From a virus: a DNA stretch of 33,400 nucleotides. The notes below the pieces were generated by a model. The model was given only the letters and a program-made list of their open reading frames with translations, did not search any database and was not told the origin of the DNA. Positions 539-18,728 of this stretch are shown in pieces. Made by a program: the position numbers and the translations under genes. How positions within the stretch are numbered: position 1 is the stretch's first letter; every line of letters begins with the position of its first letter. The stretch is from the IMG/VR virus record IMGVR_UViG_3300021364_000090, positions 1 through 33,400 of that record; one strand, 5' to 3'.

Positions 539-2071
539 TCAGAAGGTACCACCATCTACGAGTGTATTGATTAACTCAAAGGTGCCACCGTTATTATTTA
601 AAACTTGGTTTGTAGCAGTGCCAAAGTCGCCCATCCACAATCCACCGACTTGGACTGAAGCGAGAGTACCTGTTAACTGAGGACCCGCGGCTTCTGACGC
701 ATCTTCTACGAAGATGAAACCAGTGTTACCATCCCAGAAGAGGGATGATGTTTTTGCACTGGTGTCATAGTAGTGGAATCTGAAACCACGGTCACCAGTT
801 GTAGCAGATGATGGAGCACCACCACTTACTGTGCCCAATTCCAACACAGGGTCATCATAGGTGGTGACGGTTGAATTGGTTGTGGATGTAGTACCCGAAA
901 CAGTTAGGTTACCTTGGATAGTGACATCAGCACTATTTAAAGTGATAGCAGTTGTGCCATCACTCGCCTTGATGTCATTACCATTAACACGAAGGTCACC
1001 ACCAATAGTGGTATCACCACCAGTAGTTAAGGTGCCACCTGTGGTAACAGCAGTGCCACTATAAGTAATAGGTGCATTTTCTAGTTGACCGCCACTGGTA
1101 TCCCAACCCATTACGGTATCGTTGGTTAGACTACCAGCATTCTTGATTTGGACATCATCAGCGTTAACTGTGATACCTGTGCCAGCGCCAATCGACAAGT
1201 CAACAGTTTGACCTTCACCAGCAGAAGAAGATTTAGCAAGACCAGCACCTGCAGTTACATCTTCGACATAGTTGCCAGTGGTATCAGTGCCAAGAGCAAC
1301 AGAGTCAGCAGCGATGGTTGCTGTTAAAGTTGCGTTAGCAAGGTCGGTAATAGTTACGTTACCAGTGAGGTCTCCACCAAGAGTGATAGTAAAATCAGCA
1401 ACATCAAAGTCTAGTTTACCATTGGTGTCATCATAAGTAACCGAGATACCTGCTTCGCTGTTGGTCGAAACCATCGCACCAACAGTATCTTGGACATACT
1501 CATCGTTGATGGTTACTGCGCCAGAGGCAACAGTGAAGTTAGTTGCGTCGAATGATGCAACACCCTTATTGGTGTCAGTTGCATCCTCAGCAGAAATCGT
1601 AATCTGGTTATCTGATACTGCGGTATCAATACCTTCACCACCAGTGAAAGTCATTGTTTCACCAGTATTAAAAGTATCGTTGGTGCCAGAATCTGCGGCA
1701 AGAGTAAATGATGAAGCAGCAGGAGCTTGGAATGACAAAGCACCGCTACCATCAGTAACAAGGACATGACCACTGCTGCCGTCAGCAGAAGGTAGTTTAA
1801 ATGTGATGTCTGTGGTTACATCTGGAGATGCAAGACTAACGCTACCACCACCACTAACATCGGTACGTGAATAGAGTTTAACTGCTTGACCAGTCGTTGT
1901 GGTCTCTTTGACCCAGTAACGAGCAGATCCTAAAAATTTGTTGTTGCCAGATGTGCCGTCAAGACCAAGATATAGATTATATTCATCATTAACAAACGCG
2001 GGCTCACCTGCGGCGAGAGCTGGCAGATTAGCCTGCGAGCCTCTCTTAAACTTAATCGTTGGTGCCGCCAT
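539..2071 (-). CDS. Tail fibre / adhesin protein
   Basis: A 510-residue, Thr/Ser/Gly/Asp-rich, beta-predicted structural protein. The N-terminus (IKFKRGSQANLPALAAGEPA then F.NDEYNLYLGLDG) is the short cap seen on many phage fibres, where it is followed by a shaft. Residues about 80-380 are repetitive (GAGLAKS, TDTTGNYVEDVTAG, TLTTGGDTTIGGDLRVNGND). Near residues 385-470 lies a common marine-phage fibre module (GNLTVSGTTSTTNSTVTTYD, DPVLELG, GDRGFRFHYYD, LFWDGNTGFIFVED). The C-terminus ends ...LVDGGTF, like the neighbouring 115-residue protein. A late-promoter match lies at 2105-2112, and AGGA sits eight bases before the ATG. It most likely forms a trimeric fibre or baseplate appendage involved in host contact. 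Specificity cannot be read from the sequence. Confidence 0.85.
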   Translation of the reverse strand: MAAPTIKFKRGSQANLPALAAGEPAFVNDEYNLYLGLDGTSGNNKFLGSARYWVKETTTTGQAVKLYSRTDVSGGGSVSLASPDVTTDITFKLPSADGSSGHVLVTDGSGALSFQAPAASSFTLAADSGTNDTFNTGETMTFTGGEGIDTAVSDNQITISAEDATDTNKGVASFDATNFTVASGAVTINDEYVQDTVGAMVSTNSEAGISVTYDDTNGKLDFDVADFTITLGGDLTGNVTITDLANATLTATIAADSVALGTDTTGNYVEDVTAGAGLAKSSSAGEGQTVDLSIGAGTGITVNADDVQIKNAGSLTNDTVMGWDTSGGQLENAPITYSGTAVTTGGTLTTGGDTTIGGDLRVNGNDIKASDGTTAITLNSADVTIQGNLTVSGTTSTTNSTVTTYDDPVLELGTVSGGAPSSATTGDRGFRFHYYDTSAKTSSLFWDGNTGFIFVEDASEAAGPQLTGTLASVQVGGLWMGDFGTATNQVLNNNGGTFELINTLVDGGTF

Positions 2072-2104
2072 GTGTTTTTCCTACGAGATACGATTTTCTT
2101 CTAC

Positions 2105-2112
2105 TATTTATT
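2105..2112 (-). promoter_or_regulatory. Late promoter (AATAAATA) for the tail fibre gene
   Basis: The minus strand reads AATAAATA, one base off the T4-type late consensus TATAAATA. It ends 34 bases before the fibre ATG, in the short gap after the 115-residue gene. In T4-like phages such motifs are read by the phage late sigma factor gp55 with its sliding-clamp activator. Those genes are not in this window, so use by gp55 is inferred. Confidence 0.65.
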
Positions 2113-2114
2113 AT

Positions 2115-2462
2115 TTAGAAAGAACCAGCATCAACATCAATCAAGTTATCCAAGTCAGTATCGAGAGTATCGATAAAGTCTTGTGGTAATCCTGGTTGAA
2201 TTGTTTGAGTACTATCTGCAGCAGCAGAGAGCACTGCATCTGGATTGACAAATTTATATTTTTGTGCTACTGCATCATATACCATTACATAATTATTTGT
2301 AGTAGTACCTGTCTTGTCTAACGCAGATGTATCTACGTTACCCAAATCTTCTAGTGATTCTGCCACGATGTATGAAGTTGATACTTGAGTATTGGTTGCT
2401 GATTCCAATGTCACATTAGTTGCATTATTATATGACATTGTTACTTGATATTCTTCCGCCAT
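2115..2462 (-). CDS. Small virion-associated protein with fibre-like C-terminus
   Basis: A 115-residue acidic, Thr/Asn/Asp-rich protein with no membrane segment. The middle (TTTNNYVMVYDAVAQKYKFV then NPDAVL) resembles linker segments of cyanophage fibre proteins. The protein ends in a hydrophobic-acidic tail DTDLDNLIDVDAGSF, which closely parallels the ...INTLVDGGTF end of the adjacent fibre. Its ATG overlaps the stop of the upstream BppU-like gene (TAATG), so the two are translationally coupled and probably assemble together. Family unknown to me. A structural role at the baseplate or fibre junction is inferred from position and composition. Confidence 0.75.
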   Translation of the reverse strand: MAEEYQVTMSYNNATNVTLESATNTQVSTSYIVAESLEDLGNVDTSALDKTGTTTNNYVMVYDAVAQKYKFVNPDAVLSAAADSTQTIQPGLPQDFIDTLDTDLDNLIDVDAGSF

Positions 2463-2794
2463 TAGCTGATGCCTGGGGTAACTGTAACTTGTCCTTCTAC
2501 CACTCTGGTTTTTACACCGCCTGGTGAAGTAATCAAAATGTCATAACTATATCTTCCTGGTTTCAAAAGACTGGTAGCAAAACTACTCATAGAGAGTTTT
2601 AACTGACCAGCAGTCCTGTCAAGGAATGAAACACCAAAATTAGTTGATGATGAAGATGTGTAGTGTTTTTTGATTTTTGCCTCGGCACTATAATTAGTCA
2701 AATCCAAAGCAACATTATTCGATCCAGTGACAGTAAATGTCGCTTCAAAATCTGCTTTTTGCTCAACAACCAAGTTGATAGGAATAGCCGCCAT
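2462..2794 (-). CDS. BppU-like / immunoglobulin-fold baseplate protein
   Basis: A 110-residue beta-rich protein beginning MAAIPINLVVEQKADFEATF. The pattern (initial strand, 'qkaDF..tftv', 'ldLTnY.a.akik', 'pGrYsYDILITspGGvktrV.eGqVtVtPGis') is typical of the BppU N-terminal-type domain found in phage baseplates and adsorption devices. A longer reading from 2845 exists, but its extra 17 residues would be coded by the terminator hairpin and by the late promoter itself. The ATG at 2792-2794 lies 25 bases after a perfect TATAAATA and is the better start. No classic ribosome binding site is visible, which is odd for a late structural gene. The stop overlaps the start of the next gene. It is probably a small baseplate or fibre-attachment component. 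Confidence 0.78.
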   Translation of the reverse strand: MAAIPINLVVEQKADFEATFTVTGSNNVALDLTNYSAEAKIKKHYTSSSSTNFGVSFLDRTAGQLKLSMSSFATSLLKPGRYSYDILITSPGGVKTRVVEGQVTVTPGIS

Positions 2795-2801
2795 TAGACA
2801 C

Positions 2802-2837
2802 AAAAAAACCCTTCTTATGTATTTATAAGAAGGGTTT
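2802..2837 (-). terminator. Intrinsic terminator with an embedded late promoter
   Basis: On the minus strand a 13-base stem (AAACCCTTCTTAT paired with ATAAGAAGGGTTT, arms at 2825-2837 and 2806-2818) with a six-base loop is followed by seven T residues. This is a textbook rho-independent terminator. It starts five bases after the stop of the 69-residue gene. The same DNA contains the late promoter at 2820-2827. Confidence 0.85.
2820..2827 (-). promoter_or_regulatory. Perfect late promoter TATAAATA inside the terminator
   Basis: The minus strand reads TATAAATA exactly, occupying the loop and the first arm's inner end of the terminator at 2802-2837. It lies 25 bases ahead of the BppU-like gene's ATG. 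A transcript starting 5-10 bases downstream would contain only the second arm of the stem, so it should not terminate there. Confidence 0.8.
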
Positions 2838-2841
2838 AAAA

Positions 2842-3051
2842 TCATTCTTCAGTTGTTTCTTCTGGTGGCAATTCTCCAAGGTCACCAGGAGAAGATTCTT
2901 GTTGTTCTAGCAATTCTAGAGTTTCAAGTCCACCCACTAGTTTTAGTTTATATTCTTTCGCTTTTACCAACTCTCCTTGAATTTGCTCGATTTTTTCATC
3001 GATTTCTTTGAGTTGGTTTTGGAAGTTTGCTTTCAAATCAGTTGCTGCCAT
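2842..3051 (-). CDS. Small acidic coiled-coil protein
   Basis: A 69-residue protein of unknown function. Residues 5-50 form a near-continuous amphipathic helix (FQNQLKEIDEKIEQIQGELV then KAKEYKLKLVGGLETLELLE), which indicates a coiled coil. The last 18 residues are Glu/Pro-rich and probably disordered (LPPEETTEE). It has its own late-promoter match at 3076-3083 and an intrinsic terminator right after its stop, so it appears to be a single-gene transcription unit. That suggests its dose is set separately from the neighbouring baseplate genes. A scaffold, chaperone or small virion protein are all possible; the sequence does not decide. Confidence 0.75.
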   Translation of the reverse strand: MAATDLKANFQNQLKEIDEKIEQIQGELVKAKEYKLKLVGGLETLELLEQQESSPGDLGELPPEETTEE

Positions 3052-3075
3052 GAGTGCATTGATAAAGACACGATG

Positions 3076-3083
3076 TATTTATT
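3076..3083 (-). promoter_or_regulatory. Late promoter (AATAAATA), fused to a TATAAT hexamer
   Basis: The minus strand reads TATAATAAATA across 3076-3086, combining the late motif AATAAATA with a host-type -10 hexamer. It lies 25 bases before the ATG of the 69-residue gene and just after the 1648-residue gene ends. Late use is likely; host sigma use is only possible, because no -35 at proper spacing was found. Confidence 0.6.
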
Positions 3084-3095
3084 ATAGCATATATG

Positions 3096-6000
3096 TCAAC
3101 TTGCAACGTAATTCTTTTGAATAATCAAACGATTGAGATAATCGTTACCTTGGATTTCTGGAGAATATTTCAACTCAACATTACCAGCATTAATTTCTGC
3201 TGTAAACGTGCCAAGTGATTTTACCGTAAATATGGTGCTGTATTCATTTACATATGTATTGGTGCCATCATGGATAACCATTATTTTTGTGGAATGTATC
3301 CATGATGGATTGACAGTATTCTTTGCTTGAATTAAATATTCAGCAGTATCAAACCTAGAAGTAGGGAATATGTCTAAAACAATAGTGGAAGAAGATGTAG
3401 AATCAACGACTTCTAAGTTGTCGCCAATTTTAACAACCTTAAGGATGCCAAAATTAGCAGCATCATTTCCAGATTGATAATATAAGAATTGTGGAGCATC
3501 TTGTGGGACGGTAAATCTAATTAAGTCACCGACATTTGCGTTTCCATTGCCAATAACACCATCAGTATAAAGATTTGCACCAATAGTGCCAGGAGAAGTA
3601 ACAATATTGAATGGATGACCAGTTACATCTCCCAATCGGAAGACATACTCTTTACCAGCAACTAATTGCAAATCTGGAGTTTGTCCATATGATTTTTGAA
3701 TATTTTCATCATAAACTGTATATCTATTTCCATTCAAAGCAATTTCAAATGTTGGTACGCCAGCAACACCAATACCAATAGGAATTTGGTCTGGGTTTGA
3801 TGCTAAGTTACCTAAATTACCAAGAATTGTTTTTGGTTGAATGTTTTGAATTTTAGAAAGATTAATAGATTTCTCTCTAATGTCAACTACATTCTGAGTG
3901 TCGATAGTAAATCTTTCATATGCAAAACTAGAAACACCTAAAGAGCTAGCTCCACTAGATTGTCCAGCAGTATACGATACAGCATTTACATCTAACTCAA
4001 CAAATCCGCTTTCTTGTAATACACCAAATGTTACAATACCATCTGAAAGATAACTTCCAGGATTGCCAACCCTTGATGCAGTAAATGTTTGTGTACCAGT
4101 TACAGTGACATCATATGTTGCATTAAAAGTATCTGGAATAACAGATTCTATCTCAACATAATCACCTGTAGTTAATAAATGAGCAGTTGTAGTTGTTACT
4201 GTAATTACATCTGCTGCCCATGTGATAGAAGAAATATCTAATGGTGTACCTGTCTTTTTGAGAATTTCAGCTGATCCAGAAACTGTAATTGCTGATGCTA
4301 CTGGTTGTTGGATACCTTTGACTACTGGTGTAAATTTATTGAGACCATTTAGATAAGTATCATCATTTGCAACACCAGTGCCAAGTCTAGATGGTGAAAT
4401 GAGACCCGAAACAATAGCAGCAGCATCTAACTGGTTGAGAGCAATCAATTCCCAATTGTTTGCATCTGTGCCAGGTAATGCAGTTAGAATCCAAGTCTGT
4501 AAAAGCGTTAATGGGTCACCATCCGCTTCGTTTTTCTGAATTACAATATCACCTGCTTTTAGAGGGTCGCCCAAGAAAGCAAGAGAATCACCAACAGTTA
4601 AATCTGGACTGGTTGGTAATGTTTGGTCAACTGTGATGGTATTAGTTGCAATATCAATACCACCAATTACAATTCTAGTGTTATTGGGAATATTTGTGCC
4701 AGTTACAACTAAACCATCAACTAAATCTGTAACATTATTGAGAGTAATTGTATTGGCAGTGTTACTTACAATCGTCTTAGTTGCAACAGGAATATAATCC
4801 TGCAACCTTTCTGCTTCAGTTTCTACAGTATATACAACAAAAGTTGATGTCTGTGGAATCTGTGAAGAATCAATCTTACCAGTAGCATCCAACTGGACAA
4901 TTAGACCAGGAATGCTTGAAGTGCCTTTGTTGAGACCAATAAAGTTTCCTAATACCGAAGTTTTATTGATATAATCTCTAACTGCTTGCTGAGTTGGCAA
5001 TACAGTATCAGACCTACCAACTGGACCACCGAGGTCATCATCAGGAGAGAATTCAAAGATTGGGACACCAGGAGACCCTTTAAGTTGTAGAGAATCTAGG
5101 ACTCCGAGAGCAACAGATCCATTGAATGTAACCTTACCACTTCTAAGATTTACATTGAAGAATGGTCCAACACTAAAGTTACCACTTTGGTCGGTAGCAC
5201 TGACGTAAGTTTTACCAGAAGATACCTCAACACTTTGTTTCGTAACATCAGTGATACCACCATTCTGTGGGAATGCGGTGTAGTTGATTCCAGTGCCGAC
5301 GTATTCAAATGTATGAGAAGAACTATTTACAGTAGATGGCGCAAATAATTGACAAGATGCATTATTTGCAATTGATGCAACCTCTAAATCTGATAATGGG
5401 AAATTAGTTGTGAATTCTGTGAAGTTTCCTTCATCATATGTTAATACTTCACCAACTACATGCTCATTTCCTGTTAGATCTAATCCAAGACCAGGAATTT
5501 TAATAATGTAGTTTGGAATAGGTGGCGCTTGATAACCAGTAACTGTAAACTTAGTAAATACAGATCCTGAAGCAATTTCAATCTCACCAGTTGACAATCC
5601 ATCAACAATACTTCCTGCATTATATGCAACTGGTAACACAATTTGTAATTGATTGTTTTGGAAATCTACATTATCGATTACAATATTTGTGCCATTAATA
5701 TCTGGCGTGGAAACGTGGTTTGAGATGGTGACAGTTTGACCTCTTTCAAACTTACCAATGTCAACAATAGAAACCTCAATAGTTGCTCTAGTTGCAGTAC
5801 CACCTGTTTCAGAAGCAAATGTTGTGCCGACAATACTACTTGGCGAAGTGTTGATATCTGTTTTGGTGATATTCTGAGCATTAGATACTTGACCACCTGC
5901 AAAGATAGGTAATACGTTATCAGAGAAACCTACTGCCTTGAGACCTTCAAAACCAAAGTTAGTAGCAGAGTTAGTGATAGAAGCATAACCACCAGACTCT

Positions 6001-16798: not shown

Positions 16799-18676
16799 TC
16801 AGAATTCAATAACAAGTTTGATATCTTCGATTTGGTCGGGAGCACGGGTAATTAGTCTTCTGTTTTCAACATAAACAATATCACCAGTATTTTTTGCAAG
16901 TTCTGGTACTGCAAGACCATTGGTGAATGTTAAACCGAGCAGAGGAAGAACTGCACCACCAGTTGAATATCCAGTTTCAACTGTGCCAGTAATTAATGAA
17001 GTTTGACCTTCTACAAGTTTTGCAGCATCTGAAACAAATGCTCTTACAACTCCATTATCAGTATGGTAATCAGAACTCTGGAAATACTTTAAAGTACCTG
17101 ATGTTGGTGTTTGACCAGCGGATACTTCATCCCAAACCCAAGAAACTACTGTGCCATATGCAAATTCATTTGGAGCAACTTCTTGCTTGATAATTTCATC
17201 TGGAGTAAAACTTCCTGATACGTTATTTAATTTTAATGCGTAAATTGCACTAATTGTATCTTGAGTTGCAAAATCGGTTGAAGGGGCAGGTAACCTAGGA
17301 TTCTTAATGATACCAATACGACGGAAATCATTATCCACAGGGAAATCACCATCTCCTTCAGCGTATGTCAAACGAATGTTTGCCATAATTCTCTTAGCAA
17401 GAAGCTCATTAATAATGTCACTGCCATGTCCACCTGGAGGTGGAATAATTGCTTCTATGCTTCCAGATGCATTTGCAGAAACTGTGAAAGGACTAGTTAA
17501 ATCTGGATTCTCAAACAACATGCCATCTTTAATTAAGATGTTTGCATATGTATAACCACTACCAGATACATTTACTCTAGCACCACTACTATCAACTAGA
17601 TATGTATCTGAAATTTGACCATTCTGGTCAGTTTGAATTCTGACTAAACCGTTTGCACCATCCCCTTTAATTTCGGTATAAATGACATCACTAGCAGGTA
17701 AATTGCCACCTTTATCTCTCAATACCAATGAAGTAATTGCACCTGCTTGAGAAGCTGCAAGCGCAGTAACAGTTGCATCCTCAACAATAGGCATGAAGTC
17801 TGTTGAAAGGAATCTCAATACGTCATCAGTTGGAATTGTATAGAGATATTTCCAGGTGTAACCATTTGAAACATCTGGATACTCAGTGAAGATGCCAGTT
17901 GCAGAATCATATGTCCCTTCACCAGTAGGACCAGGATTTCTCTTGGGTTCTAGAGATGCATTAATACCAGAAGGACTGTCAACACTAGTACCATTTTGCA
18001 AACACTTAAATACTTCGTAAGTGTTATTGATAACGTAAAATTGTGCGTTTGCGAGAGACTCTGCAGGAGTTAAACTTCCAGCACCATCAGGGTCAACCTG
18101 TGCTGCTCTTGCATAAGAGTAATCAGGTCTCCACATGTCAAACTTAGGATTGACAGTTGGATTCCAGTTAAATCTTCTTACAACTGCTCTTACTTGGTCA
18201 GCACCAATTCTCTTAAGAGCAATCATGTCATCATGGATGCTCTTGTCTTCCTCGTCATTATCAGATGGTCTTAGAGGAATTTCGTCAGTTGCATATCTAT
18301 AAACTGCCGCATATGCAGTAGCATTAGAAGAATCACCTCTAATCTGACTACCAATGCCAGGAACTGCTGAAATATTAGGGAAAACACCAGATAGAAGAAT
18401 ACTATTTGGGTAAACTGCTTCTACTGTTGCTCGGAATGGAGAGTTTGATGCAGTAATGCCACTACCAGTGACATAAACAGTCTCACCTAGTGAGAAAGTG
18501 CCAACAGTGGAGTAAATCTCTAAATATGCATTCCACCTTTGGGGACGACCTACAAAGAAGTAGGATTTTGTTCTTTCGTCAGAAGTTGCTTCAGTGCCTG
18601 TAGCGCCTTCGGATAAAGATTCCAAAAATTGCTTAGCATTAAAGATTCTGAATTTTTCAGAAATGATGGCGGCCAT
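16799..18676 (-). CDS. 8: Baseplate wedge protein gp8-like
   Basis: A 625-residue protein beginning MAAIISEKFRIFNAKQFLES. It contains ERTKSYFFVGRPQRWNAYLE near residues 34-53 and DNDEEDKSIHDDMIALKRIG near 138-157. It also has a Trp/Tyr-rich stretch NGYTWKYLYTIPTDDVLRFL near 266-285. These are the features I associate with gp8 of cyanophage T4-like viruses, which is much longer than T4 gp8 (about 334 residues). A GxGY module near residue 372 (GSGYTYANILIKDG) links it to the neighbouring giants. Gene order gp25-gp6-giant-gp8 supports the call. In T4, gp8 joins gp10, gp7 and gp6 in the baseplate wedge. Two overlapping late promoters and an AAGGGA ribosome binding site precede its ATG, so its expression can be independent of the upstream 9.6 kb gene. 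Confidence 0.72.
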   Translation of the reverse strand: MAAIISEKFRIFNAKQFLESLSEGATGTEATSDERTKSYFFVGRPQRWNAYLEIYSTVGTFSLGETVYVTGSGITASNSPFRATVEAVYPNSILLSGVFPNISAVPGIGSQIRGDSSNATAYAAVYRYATDEIPLRPSDNDEEDKSIHDDMIALKRIGADQVRAVVRRFNWNPTVNPKFDMWRPDYSYARAAQVDPDGAGSLTPAESLANAQFYVINNTYEVFKCLQNGTSVDSPSGINASLEPKRNPGPTGEGTYDSATGIFTEYPDVSNGYTWKYLYTIPTDDVLRFLSTDFMPIVEDATVTALAASQAGAITSLVLRDKGGNLPASDVIYTEIKGDGANGLVRIQTDQNGQISDTYLVDSSGARVNVSGSGYTYANILIKDGMLFENPDLTSPFTVSANASGSIEAIIPPPGGHGSDIINELLAKRIMANIRLTYAEGDGDFPVDNDFRRIGIIKNPRLPAPSTDFATQDTISAIYALKLNNVSGSFTPDEIIKQEVAPNEFAYGTVVSWVWDEVSAGQTPTSGTLKYFQSSDYHTDNGVVRAFVSDAAKLVEGQTSLITGTVETGYSTGGAVLPLLGLTFTNGLAVPELAKNTGDIVYVENRRLITRAPDQIEDIKLVIEF

Positions 18677-18714: not shown

Positions 18715-18728
18715 TATTTATATTTATA
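18715..18728 (-). promoter_or_regulatory. Two overlapping late promoters (TATAAATATAAATA)
   Basis: The minus strand carries two perfect TATAAATA motifs sharing two bases, at 18721-18728 and 18715-18722. They lie four bases beyond the stop of the giant gp7-position gene and 38 bases before the gp8 ATG. Both have the exact late consensus, making this the strongest late promoter candidate in the window. Confidence 0.8.

Follow-up and report, generated by a model that had tools for sequence, protein, structure and literature searches.

Late promoters in hairpins and terminator-promoter cassettes

PeSL cassettes of T4-type phages were reportedly described by Arbiol in 2010 and by Comeau in 2014. 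They join a terminator to an early promoter, as a citing paper has it (PMC4503421). In T4, gene e (lysozyme), soc, I-TevI and segB have a late promoter inside a hairpin which sequesters the ribosome binding site (PMC3014915, PMC2988022). The late boxes of T4 are located at -13 to -6, and the published late box of Aeh1, a T4-like Aeromonas phage, is CTAAATA (PMC1524935).

The locus considered here lies in a 33,400-nt stretch of viral DNA (IMG/VR record IMGVR_UViG_3300021364_000090, positions 1 to 33,400), hereafter the window. A 36-base element on its minus strand probably ends one late message and starts the next, as judged from the letters and their folding. The element and its neighbors are made up as follows.

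2806..2837, minus strand: terminator hairpin of 13 bp (5' arm 2837-2825, loop 2824-2819, 3' arm 2818-2806), from letters and fold, the pairing being backed by two-sided changes in relatives
2802..2808, minus strand: run of seven T (U tract) at the stem end, after GGG, the first three T pairing with AAA of the 5' arm; from the letters
2820..2827, minus strand: late promoter box of T4 type, TATAAATA, occupying loop and inner stem; from the letters and from the 89:3 sense-to-antisense ratio of the box near cyanophage starts
2814, minus strand: predicted transcription start, a G, the sixth base past the box and fifth of the 3' arm, placed by the T4 spacing of -13 to -6 (PMC1524935)
2795..2814, minus strand: predicted 20-nt leader GAAGGGTTTTTTTGTGTCTA, from start to ATG, without a Shine-Dalgarno sequence at normal spacing; from the sequence
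2462..2794, minus strand: downstream gene of 110 aa, L-shaped tail fibre protein assembly-like (PHROG 1084 and 3304; 121 phage records)
2842..3051, minus strand: upstream gene for a 69-aa coiled-coil-like protein (phrog_580), homologues of which precede gp13 in S-PM2, S-RSM4, Syn1, S-WAM2 and S-RIM32
3076..3083, minus strand: late box AATAAATA of the 69-aa gene, from the box search

Structure and position of the element

Read from 2837 to 2802, the minus strand is AAACCCTTCTTAT-AAATAC-ATAAGAAGGGTTT-TTTT, with 13 perfect pairs and a 6-nt loop. The RNA folds at -16.9 kcal/mol (z -4.3), and none of 200 shuffled sequences was equally stable. The hairpin was listed first among 15 terminator-like sites in the first 17 kb, where shuffled sequences gave 9.0 sites of any quality. 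Its stable stem and abutting U tract conform to the sequence of an intrinsic terminator. Two points speak against the boundary explanation given below. Only 4 of the 13 pairs are G-C, and the hairpin begins so close to the 69-aa gene, 5 nt past its stop codon, that folding could be impeded by a ribosome terminating there.

Like a T4-type (gp55) promoter, the TATAAATA-like box stands on the coding strand, a little ahead of a late virion gene; promoters of this type start RNA 6 nt past the box and depend on gp55, gp33 and gp45. TATAAATA is not over-represented in the window (3 occurrences, 3.7 expected), and all seven copies of ATAAATA are on the minus, coding strand. None of the best 60 of 79 sigma70-like sites overlaps the hairpin, and an Rfam search of positions 2000-3400 gave no credible family. 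A program-called ORF (2462-2845) spans the hairpin, yet the alignment with homologues begins only with the ATG at position 2794. In other parts of the window, genes for baseplate wedge and tail fibres indicate a structural region of a T4-like cyanophage. The 69-aa gene comes with a late box too, so the unit that would be ended here likewise seems to be a late one. Elsewhere in the window, two overlapping late boxes (TATAAATATAAATA, 18715-18728) lie about 40 nt upstream of a gp8-like baseplate wedge gene (16799-18676, minus).

The late box itself was studied in eight cyanophage sequences. ATAAATA lies at most 60 nt from a start codon 89 times in sense and 3 times in antisense orientation, and CTAAATA near starts 27 times and once, respectively, unlike GTAAATA (8:3) and TTAAATA (8:8). 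From this strand bias, (A/C)TAAATA is apparently used as late box by cyanophages. CTAAATA would appear to act like a second late promoter box, and it alternates with ATAAATA in otherwise identical cassettes (L170 vs L176).

Proposed mechanism

The element is best explained, and we consider this likely, as a fused boundary between two late transcription units of a T4-like cyanophage, which would terminate read-through and start the next unit. RNA entering from the 69-aa gene carries both arms as well as the U tract, which together make a standard intrinsic terminator, and would end at about 2802. With a gp55-type late box in the loop and inner stem, new RNA would, by the T4 spacing, begin in the 3' arm at about 2814. 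Such RNA would have no 5' arm, could not form the hairpin, and would elongate into the tail-fibre-assembly gene. Its predicted use is to insulate virion gene modules (tail fibres, gp13 unit) at their edges in little space, so that each might be expressed at its own level, whatever its neighbor does. In 13 embedded examples, the read-through leaders fold at -13 to -28 kcal/mol and the promoter-started leaders at -0.3 to -6. These energies suggest that incoming RNA is stopped and RNA begun at the element released.

The original prediction had already placed a late box in the loop and inner arm of a 13-bp stem with a T7 tail, between two late units, and both the letters and the fold (z -4.3) confirm the former, while the box AATAAATA and the late appearance of both neighbors agree with the latter. 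Its claim that a transcript from the 69-residue gene contains both arms, and that one from the embedded promoter cannot make the hairpin, is borne out by folding, which gives the hairpin in the read-through leader and none in the promoter-started one. The following gene was said to have no evident ribosome binding site, and the 20-nt leader is in line with this.

Occurrence at the fibre-assembly gene and upstream of gp13

Relatives of the fibre-assembly gene were studied in 80 contigs carrying it. The four closest have the element, among them L003 with another stem (CCCCTCGTAT-AAATAA-ATGCGAGGGG-T6), a spelling found in this one contig only. Most other relatives have a late box without terminator, which counts against the boundary explanation. 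BLAST of the 39-nt window element against phage records gave only weak matches to Vibrio and Tenacibaculum phages; by this search alone, the exact window stem is not seen in isolates. The 69-aa protein had no tblastn match in phage records, and its homologues came from synteny instead.

A stem search located a second home of the 24-nt core (CCTTCTTATAAATACATAAGAAGG) immediately before the neck gene gp13, where the preceding gene is one of several unrelated ones. Leaders of gp13 were gathered by protein homology and from cultured phages. The layout recurs in the cultured phages S-PM2, S-RSM4, Syn1, S-WAM2 and S-RIM32 and in many contigs, mostly upstream of gp13 and with at least eight different stems. 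The gp13 stem is AAATCCCTATCTG-ATAAATA-CAGGTAGGGATTT in S-PM2, AAGTCCCTGCCTG-ATAAATA-CAGGTAGGGACTT in Syn1 and S-RIM32, and AAATCCCTTCTTC-CTAAATA-GGTAAGAAGGGATTT in S-RSM4 (leader L223) and S-WAM2. Further gp13 stems of the same design are present in L161, L162, L166 and L170. In a second geometry (L150, L213, L216), the box opens the 5' arm, and the predicted start is again inside the hairpin; L150 reads AAATACCTCTAG-GAAA-CTAGGGGTATTT, followed by four T and the ATG. Syn9 has almost no gap upstream of gp13, hence no element there. Just before the portal gene gp20 of Syn9 (L332:28915), a late box lies in a hairpin, TTACCCTGATAAATAGATCAGGGTAA, without T run. Terminator and late box in tandem also occur in cyanophages (S-BM3, L146, L152).

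Hairpins of another kind were observed as well. In L007, L008, L012, L020, L025, L029, L030, L052, L073 and L079, a box-containing hairpin (CACAC..TTTCCTT / AAGGAGA..GTGTG) lies just upstream of the fibre-assembly gene. Its 3' arm is the Shine-Dalgarno sequence and it has no T run, so that a T4 gene e-like hairpin stands at the gene where the window has a terminator. In two phages (L131:9485 and L137:13792, minus), a similar T-tailed hairpin, whose 5' arm is the late box (AAATACCTCC..), stands before a small gene of resolvase- or endonuclease-like type. The 3' arm of the L131 hairpin is a perfect GGAGG and could act on both termination and translation.

Control of the T4 gene e or I-TevI type has to be weighed here. 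The read-through hairpin would hide the ribosome site and the late RNA would be translated, the target being translation and not termination. The principle is documented in T4, and the hairpins of L007, L012 and L020 (AAGGAGA in the 3' arm, no T run, same gene) and of L131 (T-tailed, GGAGG as 3' arm) speak for it. The 3' arm does sequester the Shine-Dalgarno sequence or start codon in the L012, L020 clade, but not in the window, where it stops 12 nt before the ATG at 2794 and where no Shine-Dalgarno sequence is found at normal spacing. Moreover, in the gp13 families the T run follows the stem immediately, and T runs are enriched where stems occur. This explanation is considered unlikely for the window.

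Tail-fibre modules

In contig G003, one cassette (34273) lies before the fibre-assembly gene and another (49776) before gp13, bracketing a 15.5-kb block of mostly tail-fibre-like genes. The two cassettes have differing arms, and G003 is the only genome seen with two copies. L086 lacks the module, and its 69-aa-like gene, cassette and gp13 follow one another directly. At ten gp13 loci with a window-type leader, identity is about 20-42% to the left of the box (92% in one close pair) and 82-100% to the right, and the 5' arm is lost in some of them. Such breaks would agree with upstream modules being exchanged and joined at the element, as has been suggested for PeSLs. Upstream of gp13 in L144, L145, L147 and L148, the box, the 3' half and the leader are kept and the 5' arm is replaced by unrelated sequence, as though an exchange of upstream modules had left its junction at the box. 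The loss of this arm implies that the terminator is dispensable there, a point against the boundary explanation.

It is possible, if somewhat doubtful, that the fusion of late promoter and terminator is the standard cyanophage border of exchangeable virion modules. Paired cassettes would then bracket and insulate the host-range tail-fibre module, an incoming module would work at once, and the cassettes would provide short homology for swap or loss. The element may also be viewed chiefly as a recombination cassette, i.e., a short repeated homology for tail-fibre module swaps which carries promoter and terminator along, as a late-promoter counterpart of PeSLs. This view is compatible with the boundary explanation and can draw on the identical 24-nt core at two different genes, on the cassettes at both ends of the G003 module and the missing module of L086, and on the identity of about 30% left of the box against 82-100% right of it in most pairs. 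As a main role it is nonetheless very unlikely, as the covariation described below reflects selection on pairing and not on identity, many stems differ across lineages, and the single two-copy genome seen has unlike arms.

Covariation and enrichment

The pattern CCCTNNNTNNTAAATANANNTAGGG, with inner stem positions and the first box base left free, matched 93 stretches in viral contigs. All of the 42 distinct sequences examined precede gp13, and the free first box base is always A or C. The free pair -1/7 is G-C in 17, C-G in 14 and unpaired in 1, and the free pair -3/9 is T-A in 14, C-G in 13 and A-T in 5; these counts are of sequences and not of independent events, and independent changes are few, a weak point of the boundary explanation. 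The covariation score of alignment A3 is 0.287, compared to 0.136 in shuffled alignments, none of 500 reaching the observed value, and no more than 0.085 when the partner was slid. Both arms vary while box, stem and T run persist, in the series window, L095, L087 and L003 as well as in S-PM2, Syn1 and L170. Thus, the conservation of the box inside the stem, on which the original prediction had staked itself, holds in relatives.

The enrichment over shuffled sequences which it had also proposed is found, too. Of the gp13 leader clusters chosen by protein homology, 29 have a late box; the predicted start lies in a T-tailed hairpin in 12 of these (0.015 expected), a separate terminator lies upstream in 3, and a hairpin lies downstream in none. 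For 443 late-promoter clusters in 2.8 Mb, not picked by hairpin, the predicted start is inside in 16 (0.2 expected), and a hairpin lies upstream in 20 (0.4 expected) and downstream in 2, plus 1 downstream with another box in the hairpin. The scarcity of downstream hairpins is expected under the proposed mechanism, since RNA from a promoter ought not to end right after its start. Per control word, 0 to 4 cases fell inside, the top counts coming from words able to overlap the box. A T run is present in 11 of 24 leaders with an enclosing stem and in 47 of 419 others (p 5e-5). In a separate tally, six clusters had the promoter before the terminator, 4 of which carry another late box in the hairpin or overlapping its 5' arm. 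L168:1949 and L156:1016 are the only two cases of a late box, then a complete T-tailed hairpin, then a gene; they may be attenuators, unless the box is no promoter.

Any 3' hairpin can block exonucleases, and the position just past a stop codon would suit a hairpin for stability or processing at the 3' end of the upstream message, with no termination involved. The association with T runs and the near absence of downstream hairpins are predicted by termination and not by stability, and this reading is hardly probable. The view that an AT-rich word and a terminator loop overlap by chance, for which only the unremarkable TATAAATA count in the window could be quoted, is rejected as having a practically negligible probability, given the recurrence, the covariation, and the statistics of leaders and promoter clusters. 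A sequence-specific palindrome for a DNA-binding protein was likewise rejected, since the stems are too varied.

Significance and comparison with known systems

If the boundary explanation is true, the element is a natural promoter-terminator switch of about 36 bp which treats incoming and outgoing RNA polymerases in opposite ways and needs no factor beyond the late sigma machinery. Cyanophages of several genera carry it, in most cases ahead of the neck gene gp13. The separation of late units from swappable tail-fibre modules in abundant aquatic viruses would then have a concrete explanation that can be tested.

The openly available papers searched contained no account of a late promoter lying within a T-tailed terminator, and no fused late promoter-terminator was found in the 76 kb of T4 examined. 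At the T4 35/36 and 8/9 junctions, successive late units are likewise insulated by a terminator plus late promoter within a narrow gap, but the box comes after the T run, in tandem and not fused. The CTAAATA box of Aeh1 recurs in the cassettes of S-RSM4, L161, L162 and L170; it was described for one divergent T4-like phage, whereas the cyanophage cassettes alternate A and C forms.

As in PeSLs, a small intergenic stem-loop terminator and a promoter form a composite at the edges of variable modules. The PeSL promoter is of the early sigma70 type and lies beside the stem-loop; in the window, a late promoter is inside the stem, bordering virion modules. With the T4 gene e group, the element shares a TATAAATA box in hairpin DNA, a read-through RNA that folds, and a late RNA without the 5' arm. 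There, the hairpin hides the ribosome site and controls the translation of late genes on early transcripts. The window hairpin, in contrast, has a T tail and does not cover the start region, and what it would control is transcription, at the border of two late units. The principle, be it a late box in a hairpin or a composite of terminator and promoter, is known; the new part is the fusion of a T-tailed terminator with a late promoter.
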